A stretch of 64,000 bases of DNA from Sphingobacteriaceae bacterium (GTDB lineage Bacteria > Bacteroidota > Bacteroidia > Sphingobacteriales > Sphingobacteriaceae), in NCBI GenBank assembly GCA_029266635.1, contig JAQSWM010000001.1:1-64000 (forward strand), in the 5' to 3' direction. Below, in pieces: positions 44,675 to 54,321 of this stretch; the stretch's first letter is position 1; each line of letters starts with the position of its first letter. Under the pieces are notes generated by a model, which was not told the origin of the DNA, did no database searches, and saw only the letters and a program-made list of their open reading frames with translations. The position numbers were made by a program, and so were the translations under genes.

Positions 44675-45622
44675 ATGGAAGAAGAAAAAAGTATCTGGCA
44701 GCGGCTGGGCATACAAGATTGGTTTCTTACTGATGAAAATACAGGTGCCAGTAACCTGCCACGCAATCTTACGCCCGACGATGTTTATAAATATATTATT
44801 GAGAAGTTCAGTGAATCCATCCCACAACTATCCTTTGCCGGCCGGGTGGTTTTTTACCACGAATTCATCATCTGTTTCAACCCTGAAGACTTCAAGGGCT
44901 TCATGAATAACAAACAGGGAATTTTCGGGCTCATTGTTCATGAATGCGTCAAAGAGTTTTATAACATCTTAAAAGAATTTCGGGCACAGGGAAAAACTGT
45001 GGAACCATCGGGTTCAAAATGGGTTTTCAGGTTTGTTTCATCGCCTGAGTATGCCAGGGGCGATATTGGCTTCATAGGCAAGCTGCTACCAGGCGGCACT
45101 CAGAAAGAAGAAAATCTGCGCATCACGTTCATCCCCCGCCAGACCGGCGTGGCTCAAACTTTTGATGTTAATCAGGATATCCTCAAAGGCTTCACGTTTT
45201 ACAGCGAAGGCTATTACGAGGTGCCTTATGTTGATGAACTTGAACACGATGGAAAGAAAGTCCCATCCGCGAAAGCTTTCTACGCCAAATTCGATACCAT
45301 CCTCCCGGAAAAGGAATTTACCGGGAAGAAGATGGAGTATTTTATGAAGGATGAGGAGATTACCGTGTCCGGAAAAGACGAGAGCCAGGAAGGTTCCAAC
45401 ATTTTTCGCATCCCATCCGATTGGGTTAGCACACCCCACTTGCAAATACGGCTGGACAAAGGTGCGAACAAGTTCTATGTTGCTTCTTTCGGCGAAAGAA
45501 CCCTTTTAAACGAAAAGGAAATACCAAAGAGCGAGATCAGTTCTCCGGAATGGGTAGAACTTCCCATGAATTCCAAAATGATGTTGAACGGAATTGTCGG
45601 TGTAAACATTTTCAAATCTTAA
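44675..45622 (+). CDS. FHA-like protein, FhaA-type architecture
   Basis: A 315-residue protein opening the kinase operon. Residues about 30-115 (FYHEFIICFNPEDFKGFMNN ... CVKEFYNILKEFRAQGKTVE) resemble the DUF3662 domain of actinobacterial FhaA; the C-terminal 90 residues (PHLQIRLDKGANKFYVASFG then LNEKEIPKSE) look like a divergent FHA domain, though the canonical GR and SxxH residues are not obvious. It would be a phosphothreonine reader or scaffold for the SEDS-PBP fusion. Resemblance is by eye; homology is inference. Confidence 0.55.
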   Translation: MEEEKSIWQRLGIQDWFLTDENTGASNLPRNLTPDDVYKYIIEKFSESIPQLSFAGRVVFYHEFIICFNPEDFKGFMNNKQGIFGLIVHECVKEFYNILKEFRAQGKTVEPSGSKWVFRFVSSPEYARGDIGFIGKLLPGGTQKEENLRITFIPRQTGVAQTFDVNQDILKGFTFYSEGYYEVPYVDELEHDGKKVPSAKAFYAKFDTILPEKEFTGKKMEYFMKDEEITVSGKDESQEGSNIFRIPSDWVSTPHLQIRLDKGANKFYVASFGERTLLNEKEIPKSEISSPEWVELPMNSKMMLNGIVGVNIFKS

Positions 45623-45623
45623 C

Positions 45624-45719
45624 ATGTCGCACATATTATCACTGGCACTCCTTGTAATATGCGCTCTCCTTTTGGCGGCGCATTTTATGGATATAAAAAC
45701 GCGAAAACGCAATGGCTGA
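45624..45719 (+). CDS. 31-residue membrane peptide in the kinase operon
   Basis: Product: MSHILSLALLVICALLLAAH followed by a basic tail (FMDIKTRKRNG). It starts one base after the upstream stop and its end overlaps the PP2C start by 8 bp, so it is coupled on both sides. A single membrane helix with a cytoplasmic positive end is expected. Function unknown; possibly an assembly or regulatory subunit of the operon products. Confidence 0.65.
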   Translation: MSHILSLALLVICALLLAAHFMDIKTRKRNG

Positions 45720-47184
45720 GAATTTTTTTGGGTTAACCGATACCGGGAAGGTACGCGGGAATAATGAAGATGCTTTTATAGCGCAGCATGCCTGGGGCGA
45801 TAAATTCATCATTGCTTGTGTAATTGATGGCGTGGGCGGATACTCGGGCGGTGAGGTAGCTGCTGATATTGCTCGCGAAGCTATCCTTGAGCACACCTCC
45901 AAGTCAACTACCGACATTATCTCAATGATGAAGAGGGCTTTTCAGGATGCAAATGAAAAAATACATTCCGAAAGGCTACGGGTAAAAGAACATGACAGCA
46001 TGGCCTGTGTGCTTACGCTTGCCGCCATTGATATCGAGAACAATGTTTTCTATTATGCTCACATCGGCGACACAAGGCTCTACCTCTTCCGCGACAATTC
46101 TCTTGTAAAGATCACTAAGGATCATTCTTTCGTGGGTTTTATGGAAGAATCCGGCCGTATTTCGGAAGACTCGGCCATGCGCCATCCTAAGCGCAACGAG
46201 ATAAACAAAGCTCTGGGTTTTGGCGGCGATCTGGATGAGGATGACTATATAGAAACCGGGCAGTCGCCATTTTTGCCTGGTGATATGCTTCTGCTTTGCA
46301 GCGATGGCCTTACAGACATGGTGAACAAAGAAACCATGACCAATGTGTTGACGAAAAAATCGCAGTTGGAAGAAAAAGCCACTGAGTTAATTTCCGAAGC
46401 CAATGCCAAAGGTGGGAAAGACAATATCACAGTTGTACTGGTTCACAATACCAAATCTCCTGCTAAGCACGAGGCAACCATGCCAACTCCGGTAAAAAAA
46501 AAAGCCGCACATAGTCCGGTAAAAACAGTTCACACCGAGCCTGACACCGTAATTGTAGATCACGAGCGTCCAAGAAGAAGAAGCGGGGTATTGACAACCA
46601 TTCTGTCACTGCTATGCCTTGGGCTGCTGGCAACCACGCTTTACCTGTTGTGGCTCAGGGGAAAAGACGTGAATAAAACTAAGGAAACAGTTGCTGCAGC
46701 AAATCCTACCATTGATAAGCCAAGAAGTCCAGGCGAATTGAAACTACAGAATGCAATTGACACCTTCATTGGCGATACGCTCTACCTTTCCGATTCTGTC
46801 TTTACGGAACCGATCCTGATAAGCGATACCATCCAGATTGTAAAAGATACCATCTACATCAAGACGAGGGGCAATATTGTGCTGCAACGGGATTCGGCTT
46901 ACAAAGGACCTGCTTTCAAACTTACATCAGAATGTAAATCAGTGATGATAGACAGCCTTGAGCTCAGGGACTTCGATTTAGGGATATCCACGGCAAATAC
47001 CGCTTTGCAGCTAAACAACGTACGGTTTACCAACTGTCGCGTGCCGGTACAAGCCACATTCAATTTCCCGGCAAATAAGTTTATCAGCGGGCGCATTATG
47101 GATAATGCATTTGCCACAGACTCGCTTCCGCGAACTGCAGCTGCGCCTGCCAGACCAACCAGATTTTATAAAAATAGACGATAA
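45712..47184 (+). CDS. PP2C Ser/Thr phosphatase with membrane anchor (PstP-like)
   Basis: A 490-residue protein. Residues 1-250 are a PP2C phosphatase with the full motif set: RGNNED (about 13-18), VIDGVGGYSGGEVA, GDTRLYLFRD, LLCSDGLTDMV and GGKDNITVVLV, the Asp residues of which bind two metals. A basic linker leads to one membrane helix (about 293-315, VLTTILSLLCLGLLATTLYL) and a 170-residue outer domain of beta-helix type. Same layout as mycobacterial PstP. It should reverse phosphorylation by the kinase three genes downstream. Confidence 0.88.
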   Translation: MAENFFGLTDTGKVRGNNEDAFIAQHAWGDKFIIACVIDGVGGYSGGEVAADIAREAILEHTSKSTTDIISMMKRAFQDANEKIHSERLRVKEHDSMACVLTLAAIDIENNVFYYAHIGDTRLYLFRDNSLVKITKDHSFVGFMEESGRISEDSAMRHPKRNEINKALGFGGDLDEDDYIETGQSPFLPGDMLLLCSDGLTDMVNKETMTNVLTKKSQLEEKATELISEANAKGGKDNITVVLVHNTKSPAKHEATMPTPVKKKAAHSPVKTVHTEPDTVIVDHERPRRRSGVLTTILSLLCLGLLATTLYLLWLRGKDVNKTKETVAAANPTIDKPRSPGELKLQNAIDTFIGDTLYLSDSVFTEPILISDTIQIVKDTIYIKTRGNIVLQRDSAYKGPAFKLTSECKSVMIDSLELRDFDLGISTANTALQLNNVRFTNCRVPVQATFNFPANKFISGRIMDNAFATDSLPRTAAAPARPTRFYKNRR

Positions 47185-47189
47185 TCCGC

Positions 47190-50100
47190 ATGGACCAACC
47201 TGCTCCTAAAAAGATTGCTAGGAATATAGAACGCATTTTTTTACTACTTAACACCATTGTGCTGAGCCTGTTATTTTTCAGCCTCTACACAGTCCTGCAA
47301 CGCGATTTCACCGATGTGAGACAACGCATTTCGGGTGGGACGATGGTGAACCTCAACGATAAAAGCGCTGGGGAAAGCTTTGGCAATTTGCTCCGAAAAG
47401 GCTACTATTTTGAAGATCCGAGAGATATTGCCTTGATGCAAAATGTTGTTTCATCCGGGCTGAACTCGGCAGAAGGAAAGATTGACAACACGGGCGAGAT
47501 AAACAAGCGAACCTATTTTGTACTTGCCGACGAGGCTTATGCCAAAGGAGGAGAATCTTTCAAGAAACGGGTTATATCCTCCCGCTCTATGCTTGGCTTT
47601 ACAGGCAATGACTCCGTAAGATTTGTCCAGGAAATCAAGAACCCTCCTTCTGTGCCCTCTTCTACCAATGTTGGAATGGGAAAGTACAGCATCAAGGGAA
47701 ACATTATAACCAAAGAAGATAAGCCTGTTTCTGGTGTGCTGGTACGTTTGCAGATGATCCTGCCTCAAGACAGCGCCTACAGCGAAACCGTTACCGAGGT
47801 AGCGAAAAATGCAATTGAAAACGGTCCGGGATTTCAAAGAATTTACCTACTTGATACTCTAGGGCACAGGCAACTACAGTCTCTTTCTGCTTACGCCCGT
47901 ACCGACGCTCAAGGCAACTACTCCTTTGATAAACTTCCGGATGATAAGGCATTCGAGATCATCCCGCTTCAGCCCGGCTTTCAATTTGGCACTTCGCAAG
48001 GTGTTCAGGAACTCGACGATGACGAATCATTCACCTTTGTACAATCGCCTCACACCATCCGGCTCTTATCTACCCGTGATTTTAATATCCTGAAGAAAGA
48101 AAGATCACTGATTGTACGGACTCCTGCCGAATTTAACAAGTGGTTCTGGATCATCGCGATTAGCTTTTTAGCCGGTTTCTGGTTGGTACACCTGGTGTTA
48201 ACAGCACGCTTCAAACTTGCAGATCAACTTATCTTGCCCATCATCATGTTGCTTACAGGATTGTCGTTCATCACTCTGCTAAGCCTTCAGGATCCATTAC
48301 GCGACCGCTTTCTGGCGAGAGATACACTTATCTACTTTGCAATCGGCATTGTTGGCATCATCGCGTTCTTGTTCATAAGCCTGCGGCGATTTACCGCAGA
48401 TTCAGGCTTGTACCGGCTGCTGGTGTTCCGAAACAACAGAAAAGCAGCTAACGGCTGGCCCTGGGCTGTGATCGCTCTCGGCTTGCTAGCTTTGACTATC
48501 GTATTTGGAACTGGTCCCGAGGGAAGCGGTGTGAAGGTGAATCTATTCGGATTTCAGCCGAGTGAGATTGTCAAGTTCAGTATCATTCTGTTTCTTGGAG
48601 GCTTTTTTGCAGCTAACGAGCGGTTCATCAGCGAATACACCAGTTACCGCAAACGCTGGTCCTTCTTTTCCTTCGCACTCATCGCCATTGGCATTGCAAT
48701 ATTGCTTTTCCTTGTGCTGGGCGATTTAGGACCCGCAATGGTTGTTTGTTTTACATTCATCATCCTGTTTTCATTCTCTCGCGGCGATTTTATGTTCATG
48801 ATTGGTTCAATTGTAATTTATGTCGTCGCTACATGGATTTTGAAGGATGCGTGGCTATCAACCGGCGTTACAGTTGTAATTGTGGCACTGCTGATGATCT
48901 TTGGCCGAAAAAAATTAAGCGAATCAGCGATCATGGCTTTGGTGGTGATCGCCGGGTTTTTGTTGATTGACCAGATTCCATATTTGGATAAGGTTTTCCC
49001 TGGTCCGGTTCAGCGTCTGGTTGATAGAAAAGCTATCTGGCAGGATGCCTGGAACAACGAAGTATATGGTGGCGACCAGGTGGCGAACGGTATCTGGGCG
49101 ATGTCGAGCGGCGGCGTTACCGGCCAGGGTGTCGGCGAAGGTTTTGCCAAAACTATCCCGGAAGCACACACAGACATGATCCTCCCTTCAATTGGAGAGG
49201 AATTCGGCTGGACCGGAATCGTTTGTATTTTCATTCTTTTCCTCTTGTACCTGCATCGAGCCATCATCATCGGCAGGCAAACGGGAACGCCATTCCTGTT
49301 CTACCTGTGCACGGGCATCGGGATAAGTACGTTCGTTCAGTTCCTGTTGATTTCCGGTGGCTCTACCGGCGCTCTCCCACTTTCGGGCGTGTCACTACCA
49401 TTTGAAAGTTATGGTGGTTCATCCATGGTGGTGAACTTCCTGGCTTCGGGATTCCTGCTATCGGCTTCACTCGTTCAGGGTACGGCGATACAGATGCAAT
49501 ATGTGACCAAAACTCAGGATAGAAACCTGGTTCCAGCACTTGTAGCGGCGTTTATTGGGCTGGTGCTGTTGACTGTGAATGTTTCGAAATACCTGTTCAA
49601 CAACAAGAAGTGGGTAGTTCAACCGGCCTTGGTAGCCGACCGTGGCGGAGCAAGGATGTTCAGTTACAACCCGCGGATTGCAATCTTGATGAACCGCTTG
49701 CAGGCTGGTACAATCTACGATCGTGAAGGCCGGATATTGGCAACGAGCAAACCAGAACTCATCAGGAAACAAGGCAATTTGCTGCGTTCTGCAGGTCAGT
49801 ATTACAACCTAGATTCTGCCATGCACAAACGTTTGGACAGATACTATCCGTTTGCAGAACAAATGTTCTTCTGGGTGGGCGATGCGAATACCGGCGTGTT
49901 TAACGGTAGCCCGAACGGCTACTTTGCCGAGTACGAACATGCCGCAGACCTGCGAGGCTTCCACACCGAAACAGAGGGCTTTAATGTAACGGCGACCCGC
50001 TACCGAGAAGACCGATTCCTGCCAAGAGGCGTACGGGAAATGTCAGTTGCTAAACGCGATTACAGCGAACTCGCCCCTCTCCTGCTCGCGGGTATCAACA

Positions 50101-51398
50101 GTAAAGCTGTGGAAGAATTCAAAAAGCGGAACCGCGATATCCAATTGACTATGGATGCCGGACTGCAAACGACGCTTCAGAAGTCAATTGCTCTTGACGA
50201 CTCGCTAAAAGACAATCGCGTTTCGGTAGTGGTTATGGAAGCAACCACCGGCGATGTGCTTGCTTCCGCAATGTATCCTTTGCCGCAAATCAACAACTGG
50301 GATCAGTTGACGATGAGCCAGGCTGAGCAAAATAAGCTTGATTACTGGATTACAAACAGCGATTTAGGTTTTACTTATGCAACACAGCCGGGTTCGACAG
50401 CTAAGGTAGCCACCGCTCTGGCGGCCTTCAATAAGTTGGGCGTTGCTGCCGATCAGATAAAATATCCGGTTTACGCTCGTGAGAGAATTCGTACCAAGGG
50501 CATAGAACCAGATGAAACAGGGATGATCAGTATGGAGCGAGCCATTGAGAAATCAAACAACGTTTATTTCATCAAACTGGCCAATGAGCGTCATTTACAG
50601 GAAGACATGGTTACCATTTACATGAAGTGCGGCATGTTCCTTAGGGGCGTTGGCGGATATTATTTCAGCAAGCCTCCTGTAAATACTGATCAGGAAAATA
50701 AATGGCGTGACCTGTGGCGCAAAACCGAGTTCAGTACCAAACCCGCTTATGATCCGAATAACATTCGCAGGACACGGGCAAAGGGCATTTCGGGTATGTC
50801 GTGGGGACAGGGCGAACTTATTGCCACGCCAGCGGCAATTGCCCGGATGGCTGGCAGCATAGCTAACCATGGAACATTAGTGCCTAACCGCTACGTTCTT
50901 CGAATTGCTGACTCGCAAATTCCCGTTAGCAGCGGTGTGAAGTTAGCTGAAGATCCTAAATATGCAGATTACATACGTGGGTATATGATCAAGCAGAGTG
51001 CACCCAAAGTACCGATATTGAACCTCTCCGTTGCGGGAAAATCAGGTACGCCGGAGAGAATCTGGAAGCGTGAGCGCATCAACGACGGCTGGTATGTATT
51101 CTTTGCTCCAAAGGCCAAAGGCGACGGGTATATTGTGGTTTGTATCCGTGTAGAATCAACAAAAGGCTCAAGCGATGCGGTAAGGTTAGCAGGTCAACAC
51201 GTGGTGCCGCTTTTATTGAAGAAAGGCTATGTTAAGAATATAGTAGATCCGGCGAAGCCAGCGACGGGAGCTTTGGTAACAGACAATCTGCAGCTACAGC
51301 CGACTACGCAGCAACCCGTCACAGAACCTACCCAACAGCCATCCGCCAAGCCTACTGCTCAACCAGCAGATACATCGGCTTCAAGCAGCCCGCAATAA
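47190..51398 (+). CDS. SEDS glycosyltransferase-class B PBP fusion
   Basis: A 1402-residue membrane protein. Residues 1-40 hold a first membrane helix; 160-275 an outer carboxypeptidase-regulatory-like beta domain (GNIITKEDKPVSGVLVRLQM ... ARTDAQGNYSFDKLP); 325-800 a SEDS domain with QPSE (456-459), PEAHTD with catalytic-type Asp662, and PLSGVSLPFESYGGSSM; 850-1350 a class B PBP with GTIYDREGRILA, S1069-T-A-K1072, S1122-N-N and K1284-S-G-T. The C-terminus is Pro/Gln/Thr-rich. It should polymerise and cross-link glycan strands in one chain. Rod or division systems normally use two proteins. Confidence 0.9.
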   Translation: MDQPAPKKIARNIERIFLLLNTIVLSLLFFSLYTVLQRDFTDVRQRISGGTMVNLNDKSAGESFGNLLRKGYYFEDPRDIALMQNVVSSGLNSAEGKIDNTGEINKRTYFVLADEAYAKGGESFKKRVISSRSMLGFTGNDSVRFVQEIKNPPSVPSSTNVGMGKYSIKGNIITKEDKPVSGVLVRLQMILPQDSAYSETVTEVAKNAIENGPGFQRIYLLDTLGHRQLQSLSAYARTDAQGNYSFDKLPDDKAFEIIPLQPGFQFGTSQGVQELDDDESFTFVQSPHTIRLLSTRDFNILKKERSLIVRTPAEFNKWFWIIAISFLAGFWLVHLVLTARFKLADQLILPIIMLLTGLSFITLLSLQDPLRDRFLARDTLIYFAIGIVGIIAFLFISLRRFTADSGLYRLLVFRNNRKAANGWPWAVIALGLLALTIVFGTGPEGSGVKVNLFGFQPSEIVKFSIILFLGGFFAANERFISEYTSYRKRWSFFSFALIAIGIAILLFLVLGDLGPAMVVCFTFIILFSFSRGDFMFMIGSIVIYVVATWILKDAWLSTGVTVVIVALLMIFGRKKLSESAIMALVVIAGFLLIDQIPYLDKVFPGPVQRLVDRKAIWQDAWNNEVYGGDQVANGIWAMSSGGVTGQGVGEGFAKTIPEAHTDMILPSIGEEFGWTGIVCIFILFLLYLHRAIIIGRQTGTPFLFYLCTGIGISTFVQFLLISGGSTGALPLSGVSLPFESYGGSSMVVNFLASGFLLSASLVQGTAIQMQYVTKTQDRNLVPALVAAFIGLVLLTVNVSKYLFNNKKWVVQPALVADRGGARMFSYNPRIAILMNRLQAGTIYDREGRILATSKPELIRKQGNLLRSAGQYYNLDSAMHKRLDRYYPFAEQMFFWVGDANTGVFNGSPNGYFAEYEHAADLRGFHTETEGFNVTATRYREDRFLPRGVREMSVAKRDYSELAPLLLAGINSKAVEEFKKRNRDIQLTMDAGLQTTLQKSIALDDSLKDNRVSVVVMEATTGDVLASAMYPLPQINNWDQLTMSQAEQNKLDYWITNSDLGFTYATQPGSTAKVATALAAFNKLGVAADQIKYPVYARERIRTKGIEPDETGMISMERAIEKSNNVYFIKLANERHLQEDMVTIYMKCGMFLRGVGGYYFSKPPVNTDQENKWRDLWRKTEFSTKPAYDPNNIRRTRAKGISGMSWGQGELIATPAAIARMAGSIANHGTLVPNRYVLRIADSQIPVSSGVKLAEDPKYADYIRGYMIKQSAPKVPILNLSVAGKSGTPERIWKRERINDGWYVFFAPKAKGDGYIVVCIRVESTKGSSDAVRLAGQHVVPLLLKKGYVKNIVDPAKPATGALVTDNLQLQPTTQQPVTEPTQQPSAKPTAQPADTSASSSPQ

Positions 51399-51453
51399 AT
51401 TTGGAATGTTTATTGAATAAGAATAACTGAGTACCCCAATTAATTACAACAAC

Positions 51454-52242
51454 ATGTTCGATATATTTAAAAGCGACACAGAAAGTCGCCCTCAAGATGT
51501 TAAAGGACTGCGGGAAGCGGTTCTTCGTTTCATAAAAGATGAATTACAAAGAGTAGAAGGCGGCGAAGGCAGCCATATAAAAGGCTTACATATTTTCCTG
51601 ATGTGTTCGGAAGAACAGACGCATGTCTATGAGTCGGCGGTGTATGCAGAGGAACCTCAGAAGTTTCGTGAAGAAATTCAAAAAATAGCTGACGATTTTG
51701 CCATCAGCCTTCCTGAAAACTGGATGATTGAAACCACGTTTACAGATGCGCTGCCAACCGAGGCAATTAAGAGTAAAGAAATTGATGCTGCCTTGTTTAT
51801 CAAGACAACCAAACACGCACTGCAGAAATCCGGAGATGCTTACATCAGGGTTTTAAGCGGCGAGGCAGAAAAGACAGAATACCACATCACTTCAGACAGC
51901 GGAAAAATAAGGATTGGCCGTGAGAAAAAAGCGCAAGATTCAAATGGCTTTTTCAGGATGAACACTATTGCATTCCCCGGCGACAGCCAAAACGAGTGCA
52001 ACAAATACATCAGCAGGCAACATGCGCATATTGAGTGGAACAATGACGCCGGAGTTTTCATCCTGTATGCAGATGAGGGCGGAGTCCCACCGCATAACAA
52101 AATCAAGATACAGTCATCAATTGATGAAGAGCAAATCAAACTGAATTCTACAGAAATCGGGCATACGCTGCAAGAAGGCGATCAGATCATTCTTGGAGAA
52201 TCGGCCGTTTTAGAGTTCAGTTTTAGATCGGAGGAGGAATAA
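51454..52242 (+). CDS. FHA-domain protein
   Basis: A 262-residue cytoplasmic protein. The C-terminal FHA domain is clear: KIRIGREKKAQ (Gly-Arg), NKYISRQHAHIEWNN (Ser-x-x-His) and the later strands to VLEFSFRSEEE. The N-terminal 120 residues (LREAVLRFIKDELQRVEGGE) resemble the FhaA N-terminal domain. It should bind phosphothreonine on the kinase or on the SEDS-PBP fusion. Its stop overlaps the kinase ATG (TAATG). Confidence 0.8.
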   Translation: MFDIFKSDTESRPQDVKGLREAVLRFIKDELQRVEGGEGSHIKGLHIFLMCSEEQTHVYESAVYAEEPQKFREEIQKIADDFAISLPENWMIETTFTDALPTEAIKSKEIDAALFIKTTKHALQKSGDAYIRVLSGEAEKTEYHITSDSGKIRIGREKKAQDSNGFFRMNTIAFPGDSQNECNKYISRQHAHIEWNNDAGVFILYADEGGVPPHNKIKIQSSIDEEQIKLNSTEIGHTLQEGDQIILGESAVLEFSFRSEEE

Positions 52243-53696
52243 TGCCAAGGGTATTCACCATAACAGAAGGGCTAGAGAACATGGGCGCAATGCGCACCGG
52301 CGGGCAGGGCTCTGTTTATAAGGGGAAGCGGATTGGCGAGATAGTTACGGCTGTTAAGATCCTGCCCACCCCTATTTACGCCGAGAACAATGAAGATCAG
52401 AACTTCAGGAATTTTCAAAGCGAAGTTGCCAAGCTAAAGAAAGTAAATGAAGAGCCCAGTCCACATGTGGTGACTATCTTAAGCTCGGGCATTACAGACA
52501 GCGGATCCCTGCCATTCATCGAAATGGAATATATTGAAGGCCCCGACTTGGAGGAGCTCCTGAAACCACCACACGATCCTATTTTCACCATCAAAGAAGC
52601 CATCAAACTAGCCGATCAGTTAGCATGCGCCCTTGCACATTGCCACAGAGTTGAAGTAAGGCATGGCGATATTAAGAGCAACAATGTTAAGCTGAACGTA
52701 CATTCCGGCAATTACATGCTGCTTGATTTTGGGCTTTCTGTGATGTCTGATGAACAGCGACGCACCAGCCTGCGCCATGCCGGCGCCATTGAATTCATGG
52801 CCCCGGAACAGAACGATGGGAAAATGCTGTATCAAACGGACATTTACAGTTATGGAATCATTCTGTTCGAATTACTTGCGGGCACCGTCCCATTTCCTTT
52901 AACAGATAATAGTGAGATATCCCGGAATGAAGTGATGATCTCTCATATGGACGCCCAGCTTCCGGATCTGCTAAAACTCCGGTTGAAGAATATGCCCGAG
53001 CAATGGCCGCAGGAACAACGCATTTCCGAAATGCAGGTGCCTCAATGGCTGCTCAACATTGTTTATAAGTGTTTAGAAAAGGATCCGGAGAAAAGATTTG
53101 TTAATGGCACTGAGCTTCATGAAGCCATTGCCAACAGGACCGTGGCGGCACATCAGGCGAGCAGCGTGAACGCGGTAATTATTGAAAGTGAAAATGAGCG
53201 CCTGCAAACAATTCTGAACGCTAAAGACGAGCACTTAACAAAGCTCAAAGAAACGCTTGCAAAAAAAGAGGCTGAACTGCTATCGTTTAAAAATCAGGCA
53301 GACTTCGCCAGGAAAGCCGTGCCAGTAGCAAGGCCTGTGTTCCTGGTTCTGCTACTGCTGATGCTTTCACTGGTAGTATTTGCCGGCTTTACGCTCCTGC
53401 GGGATAAACGTTCCGGCCATCAAACTTCTGCGCTGCTTGATACCACGATGGATTCAACTGCAATTGCTGATTCAATAGCTAAAGCAGATTCGTTGGCAAA
53501 AGTAGATTCTGCGATGAGGGCTGATTCGATAAGGAAGGCTGAAGCGCTGGCAAGAGCAAGCGAGCCGAAAACGCCGATTAGAGAGATTTCCGCTCAGTCC
53601 GAACCTGCCAATGAAGACCACGGTAAAGGAAACGGGAAAGCCAAAGGCAAAGGCAAAAAGAATAAGCTGTTTGAAGTGCGGTTTGTTAAACCCTAG
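52242..53696 (+). CDS. Transmembrane Ser/Thr protein kinase (PknB-like)
   Basis: A 484-residue Hanks-type kinase. Glycine loop MRTGGQGSVYKG (17-28), ATP Lys39 (TAVKIL), catalytic loop H141-G-D143-IKSNN (Gly instead of the usual Arg, so a non-RD kinase), DFG 162-164, and MAPEQ. A coiled coil (about 320-355) precedes one membrane helix (about 366-386) and an outer tail with repeated A-D-S/A-K units and a Lys/Gly-rich end. No PASTA domains are seen. It should phosphorylate its operon partners; PP2C reverses it. Confidence 0.9.
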   Translation: MPRVFTITEGLENMGAMRTGGQGSVYKGKRIGEIVTAVKILPTPIYAENNEDQNFRNFQSEVAKLKKVNEEPSPHVVTILSSGITDSGSLPFIEMEYIEGPDLEELLKPPHDPIFTIKEAIKLADQLACALAHCHRVEVRHGDIKSNNVKLNVHSGNYMLLDFGLSVMSDEQRRTSLRHAGAIEFMAPEQNDGKMLYQTDIYSYGIILFELLAGTVPFPLTDNSEISRNEVMISHMDAQLPDLLKLRLKNMPEQWPQEQRISEMQVPQWLLNIVYKCLEKDPEKRFVNGTELHEAIANRTVAAHQASSVNAVIIESENERLQTILNAKDEHLTKLKETLAKKEAELLSFKNQADFARKAVPVARPVFLVLLLLMLSLVVFAGFTLLRDKRSGHQTSALLDTTMDSTAIADSIAKADSLAKVDSAMRADSIRKAEALARASEPKTPIREISAQSEPANEDHGKGNGKAKGKGKKNKLFEVRFVKP

Positions 53697-54232: not shown

Positions 54233-54241
54233 GTTCAGGTG

Positions 54242-54321
54242 TACCCAGCGCCGGAATCGAACCGGCACGGTTTCCCATCGGTGTTTGAGACCGACGCGTC
54301 TACCAGTTCCGCCAGCTGGGC
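54242..54321 (-). tRNA. tRNA-Leu(CAA)
   Basis: A complete cloverleaf reads on the minus strand: acceptor GCCCAGC / GCTGGGT, D-arm with ACTGGTAGACGC, anticodon stem TCGGT / ACCGA around CTCAAAC giving anticodon CAA, a variable arm, and T-arm GCCGG-TTCGAAT-CCGGC. The CCA end is not encoded. It has its own promoter inside the 3' end of hscB. Confidence 0.92.

Follow-up and report, generated by a model that had tools for sequence, protein, structure and literature searches.

In the Actinobacteria, tuberculosis bacteria included, wall growth is controlled by the fhaA-fhaB-pstP-rodA-pbpA-pknA-pknB cluster, the closest described counterpart of the locus reported here (PMC6554272, PMC11898655). In vitro, the phosphatase PstP of the actinobacterial cluster removes phosphate from PknA, PknB, and PbpA, and when its operon is knocked down, cell wall and cell shape are altered (PMC6554272). 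FhaA acts in polar elongation (PMC11898655), and the Corynebacterineae are without other Rod components (PMC8262863). Man-made RodA-PBP2 fusions were found to be active (PMC6207328, PMC10449877), and natural fusions of a SEDS protein with a penicillin-binding protein (PBP) in a single open reading frame (ORF) have been noted before: PMC10449877 cites for them its reference 18, on the genome of Rhodococcus RHA1. In a 64,000-nucleotide stretch of Sphingobacteriaceae bacterium DNA (assembly GCA_029266635.1, contig JAQSWM010000001.1, forward strand), hereafter the window, whose numbering is used throughout, six genes at 44675-53696 were proposed in a preliminary description to mirror this actinobacterial locus. 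That they form a conserved variant, in the Bacteroidota, of the actinobacterial locus for wall control is confirmed below; no earlier description of the Bacteroidota locus was found in the literature searched, most subscription journals lying outside its scope. The six ORFs run head to tail:

FHA1, 44675..45622, + strand, 315 amino acids (aa): FhaA-like protein with an N-terminal FhaA_N-related domain and a C-terminal FHA fold, its phosphothreonine pocket degenerate.
Micropeptide, 45624..45719, + strand, 31 aa: single membrane helix by hydrophobicity; MSHILSLALLVICALLLAAHFMDIKTRKRNG
PP2C, 45712..47184, + strand, 490 aa: Ser/Thr phosphatase with a cytoplasmic domain, one membrane helix (297-315, by hydrophobicity), and a periplasmic C-terminal domain.
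SEDS-bPBP fusion, 47190..51398, + strand, 1402 aa: SEDS polymerase and class B PBP (bPBP) transpeptidase in one chain.
FHA2, 51454..52242, + strand, 262 aa: FHA protein with an intact phosphothreonine pocket (G155-R156 ... S187-R188-x-H190).
Kinase, 52242..53696, + strand, 484 aa: membrane Ser/Thr kinase with an HGD ("non-RD") catalytic loop and one membrane helix (368-386, by hydrophobicity).

The successive spacings of 1, -8, 5, 55, and -1 bases bear out the one-strand order with short gaps and overlaps that had been read from the DNA, and the gene identities proposed with it were likewise upheld. Pfam matches were obtained for PP2C (2.5e-14; also Stp1-like in NCBIfam, under the equivalog cut-off), for the fusion (FtsW/RodA 2.3e-44 and transpeptidase 1.4e-24 within a single chain), for the kinase (Pkinase 2.8e-36), and for FHA2 (FHA 1.6e-4, over the cut-off, with an FHA fold in the predicted model). 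FHA1 reached no better than E 0.08 against Pfam FHA, and its predicted structure has the FHA fold (VIA Z 14.2, residues 201-315). The Foldseek/VIA fold comparisons spanned the FHA part of the FHA1 and FHA2 models only; the N-terminal domains of both models run helix-strand-helix-helix-strand-strand. Along the fusion, a membrane helix (18-36) is followed by a periplasmic region (~40-317, with a weak CarboxypepD_reg match), the SEDS part (~332-779), a further helix (780-798), and the transpeptidase (~1012-1328).

Compared with the actinobacterial reference loci of Tsukamurella (L113) and Actinomyces (L138), the cluster has in common the order FhaA, membrane-helix gene, PP2C, SEDS, bPBP, kinase, together with the SEDS group, a protein combining FhaA_N and FHA, and a phosphatase linked to the SEDS-bPBP pair. 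It differs in that SEDS and bPBP are fused, with an additional helix and a periplasmic region at the N-terminus, an extra FHA protein follows the synthase, a micropeptide replaces FhaB, and the kinase is of another lineage, with the HGD loop. Unlike the situation in the Corynebacterineae, the Bacteroidota unit would be accessory beside MreB-RodA. The previously noted single-ORF fusions likewise place polymerase and transpeptidase in one chain, but the present case differs in phylum, N-terminal periplasmic extension, and gene linkage, the Rhodococcus example being known by citation alone. With the RodA-PBP2 and FtsW-FtsI complexes the fusion shares SEDS and bPBP chemistry and active sites, whereas it falls outside the FtsW, RodA, FtsI, and MrdA clades. 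Since the man-made RodA-PBP2 fusions are active, the natural one could plausibly work as an enzyme.

A scan of GTDB genomes returned at least 74 loci, mostly from Mucilaginibacter, Pedobacter, and Chitinophagaceae (Sphingobacteriales and Chitinophagales), and the core set comprised the 70 loci, the window's own counted in, that have both FHA1 and PP2C among the matches listed. The preliminary description had named loss of linkage in related genomes as grounds for its own rejection; in 70/70 loci the order FHA1-PP2C-fusion-FHA2 is kept, with the micropeptide after FHA1, which confirms that the gene set is real and conserved rather than a chance arrangement. The outer flanks vary between genera. 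Kinases, nearly always one to three per locus and all of one family, flank both sides in 37 of the 70 loci, the upstream side only in 16, and the downstream side only in 16, with none in the stretch in 1. Pedobacter panaciterrae O48 carries near-identical copies (L068 and L070) on one contig in opposite orientation, the pair including one shorter FHA1 frame, which may represent a duplication or an assembly artefact.

The active sites are as well kept as the gene order. In the SEDS part, Asp662 is retained in 70/70 fusions, and the transpeptidase motifs SxxK (1069-1072), SxN, and KTG/KSG are conserved across about 70 of them, so that by domain and catalytic motifs the fusion is predicted to be both a SEDS peptidoglycan polymerase and a class B PBP. 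The metal-binding motifs of PP2C are conserved in 71 sequences, the phosphothreonine pocket of FHA2 is invariant (73/73 sequences), and K39, D143, N148, and D162 are invariant in 121 kinases, which have HGD instead of HRD. The pocket residues of FHA1 are lost in 69 sequences of the window's lineage and present in deep-branching loci.

The descent of the parts was followed separately, in unrooted trees that are silent on the direction or age of transfer. In two SEDS trees, the fusions, the RodA of actinobacterial pstP loci, and an FHA-linked SEDS of Monoglobus share one side of a branch (support 100/99 and 100/100), on the opposite side of which lie all the FtsW and classical RodA sampled from several phyla; without Monoglobus, the fusions and the actinobacterial RodA still grouped at 100/99.8. 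Derivation of the fusion SEDS from Bacteroidota FtsW or from Bacteroidota RodA was rejected by the approximately unbiased (AU) test (p 0.0009 and 4.5e-6, respectively). A long-branch artefact was also set aside: the grouping survived a tight alignment without the longest rows and then, in the last build, the addition of one actinobacterial FtsW as a control, which fell among FtsW. By these trees, the SEDS half is of the RodA type found in the actinobacterial locus. The clostridial Monoglobus pectinilyticus locus (L144) resembles the present one in that an FHA protein stands immediately ahead of SEDS and bPBP and in the side of the 100/100 branch on which its SEDS falls; its bPBP groups with PbpA (100/98). 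It differs in that the genes are separate and that neither a PP2C nor a kinase is annotated in that stretch.

FHA1 points the same way by a less direct route. The window's FHA1 gave no match in the Pfam FhaA_N search, and its family aligned weakly with actinobacterial FhaA in direct hhalign comparison (probability 2%, E 0.021), so the link to FhaA runs through deep-branching FHA1s only: the FhaA_N profile was matched by 5/5 of these distant proteins (that of L116 with 26.3-26.5 bits vs a cut-off of 25), and the window's FHA1 family aligned with them at 96% (hhalign, E 2.6e-9). By way of these members, FHA1 is assigned on profile evidence to the FhaA family.

The micropeptide ORF is present in 70/70 loci, with the pattern MSQILS..LL....LL..HF.DIK and a median pairwise dN/dS of 0.22, and these features indicate a real gene for a 31-aa membrane micropeptide. 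Small membrane ORFs also stand between FHA1 and the next gene at L110, L114, L115, L116, L117, L118, L119, and L120. The HF-D motif is common to the forms of Spirosoma (L110) and G249 (L114), the remaining distant ORFs sharing position and one hydrophobic helix without clear sequence similarity. In actinobacterial loci, the slot between fhaA and pstP is occupied by fhaB, encoding a membrane helix and then FHA; at the micropeptide position, a FhaB-type gene with both parts is absent and a membrane-helix peptide alone is found. The micropeptide is hypothesised to be homologous to the FhaB helix. A bolder and still doubtful extension would give Actinobacteria and Bacteroidota a common, ancient control module built on an FHA-linked SEDS-bPBP pair. 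This would be a third synthase class beside the divisome and the Rod system, and its constant but overlooked subunit would be a tiny membrane helix, joined to FHA in FhaB and standing alone as the micropeptide of the Bacteroidota.

The genome containing the window also encodes FtsW and FtsI, which lie in a wall cluster with about 5 kb between them, as well as a RodA/PBP2 pair beside MreB and MreC. This makes the fusion the third SEDS of the genome and bears out the earlier proposal of a unit separate from the ftsW/ftsI and rod systems. Genome-wide (the assembly being 95.8% complete), there are 2 Pkinase, 1 FHA over the cut-off, and 1 PP2C_2 matches, 3/4 of which lie within the operon; the second Pkinase (566 aa; match C1:267270-268076, L128) belongs to the operon kinase family and is about 215 kb away.

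Taken together, the operon is best read, with a probability of roughly 0.6, as encoding a dedicated third peptidoglycan synthase that has a Ser/Thr phosphorylation switch of its own. The kinase, or the kinase pair of many relatives, would sense the periplasm and phosphorylate threonines, either in a cytoplasmic loop of the synthase or on a partner protein in the cytoplasm. FHA2 would bind these phosphothreonine sites and dock or release an activator, so controlling the single-chain polymerase-transpeptidase, and PP2C would reset the phosphothreonine state. FHA1 may be a scaffold whose own pocket has decayed in the window's lineage, and the micropeptide a membrane subunit, at the position of the FhaB membrane anchor, that contacts the synthase or serves the FHA proteins as an anchor. 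As an accessory beside the divisome and the Rod machinery, the unit would probably be used under particular conditions.

Distant loci retain the set in varied arrangements. Spirosoma (L110) and G249 (L114) have FHA1-PP2C-kinase-kinase-fusion-FHA2, G269 (L115) has kinase-FHA1-PP2C-fusion-FHA2-kinase, and G030 (L118) has FHA1-PP2C-fusion-FHA2. In G179 (L120), PP2C, SEDS, and bPBP form one 1384-aa frame (L120:7762-11913) between FHA1 and FHA2, an arrangement which suggests that the phosphatase acts together with the synthase. Both G030 and G179 have a kinase of the operon-kinase group a few kb upstream of the locus. The FHA2 of high-GC distant loci carries an extra N-terminal domain, matched in L120 (L120:11979-13250, G179) to Swt1-like HEPN (Pfam E 7e-22), and that of L118:11435-12802 looks similar.

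Several observations weigh against a dedicated, phospho-switched synthase derived with the actinobacterial locus. Its function is inferred from sequence, and no phosphosite could be named on the synthase, which has few conserved cytoplasmic threonines, T698 being one candidate. Three distant loci, L116 (G131), L117 (G013), and L119 (G034), consist of FHA1-fusion-FHA2 with no adjacent PP2C or kinase. In the tree, the operon kinase falls outside the PknA/PknB/PrkC clade, and it gave no Pfam match to PASTA domains. In the bPBP tree, the fusion bPBP forms a fourth lineage beside FtsI, PBP2 (MrdA), and PbpA, and since a joint clade with PbpA was not rejected (p 0.478), its placement beyond a separate lineage is not fixed. 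The operon PP2Cs form one clade (100/99), whose placement is equally loose, a joint clade with PstP not being rejected (p 0.194). As to the loci of G131, a PP2C of the operon clade is located away from L116. The same genome has a second, divergent SEDS-bPBP fusion at L121 (G131:C121), and a small kinase frame lies some 4 kb upstream of it; no micropeptide-like ORF was seen upstream of that fusion.

Part by part, therefore, the trees and profiles indicate that two components (SEDS and FHA1) descend with the actinobacterial locus, two (bPBP and PP2C) are compatible with such descent, and one (the kinase) differs; given this kinase, block descent of the whole locus is not established. The likeness to fhaA-fhaB-pstP-rodA-pbpA-pknB is partly due to common descent, and the preliminary interpretation, a mirror by convergence or ancient transfer, is supported to that extent: the shared descent of SEDS and FHA1 stands, the kinship of the kinase with PknB does not.

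Presence of the locus is patchy: it occurs in 15/101 genomes of the family, and in the phylum sample 12/296 genomes, from six families, had a long fusion match. It is also present on a Spirosoma plasmid, and the G033 fusion is closer to the window's (61% identity) than to the fusion of G269, a genome from the same family as G033 (33%). These three features suggest transfer within the phylum. Base composition gave no clear sign of foreign origin (GC 0.47 in the operon vs 0.44 in the window and 0.46 at the rod and ftsW loci). A tRNA-Leu (caa) lies on the other strand at 54241-54321, about 0.5 kb past the operon, and another near L116; tRNA-linked insertion was set aside, few other loci having a tRNA nearby. 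Three "plasmid" records (NZ_LN868939, NZ_LT559118, and NZ_CP119142) resemble chromosomes or parts of them, with wall and division genes and 2-12 Mb in size. Upstream of FHA1 the Bacteroidota promoter motif TTG-N-TAnnTTTG was not found, and sigma-70 and terminator scans gave matches at chance level.

The same distribution bears on two other possible roles. The fusion may be a spare, mobile backup synthase for wall stress or β-lactam exposure, replacing inhibited enzymes once the phospho-switch turns it on; the patchy presence, the plasmid carriage, the cross-family relation of the G033 fusion, and a bPBP apart from FtsI and PBP2 would fit this tentative reading, but matches to MecA-type PBP2a were weak and local, with MecA outside the tree sample, and no resistance-gene context was seen. 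Comparably speculative is a role in morphogenesis, the synthase serving a special shape of the wall or a particular site of growth rather than stress, as might be expected from the part that the actinobacterial counterpart plays in elongating and shaping the cell (PMC6554272, PMC8262863) and from catalytic residues whose conservation suggests regular use. Most same-family relatives are without the locus, an argument against any general role in shape. Convergent assembly, in which kinase, phosphatase, FHA, and SEDS-bPBP were joined independently in the Bacteroidota and the likeness is functional only, is unlikely: the unrelated kinase, its varying number and position, and the loose affinities of bPBP and PP2C to PbpA and PstP would suit it, but the 100/100 SEDS affinity with alternative placements rejected, the FhaA family membership of FHA1, and a shared gene order in which a membrane-helix gene takes the place of fhaB argue otherwise.

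As a third synthase with its own phosphorylation switch, the operon would bring the best known locus for wall growth under phospho-control, until now described for the Actinobacteria, into outer-membrane Gram-negative bacteria with normal MreB. Because its distribution points to an accessory rather than an essential locus, the parts could be deleted one at a time. The natural SEDS-bPBP fusions and, in one genome, the PP2C-SEDS-bPBP fusion fix the stoichiometry of their parts and would offer single-chain targets for learning how Ser/Thr phosphorylation reaches a SEDS polymerase, and the conserved micropeptide suggests an unrecognised subunit.

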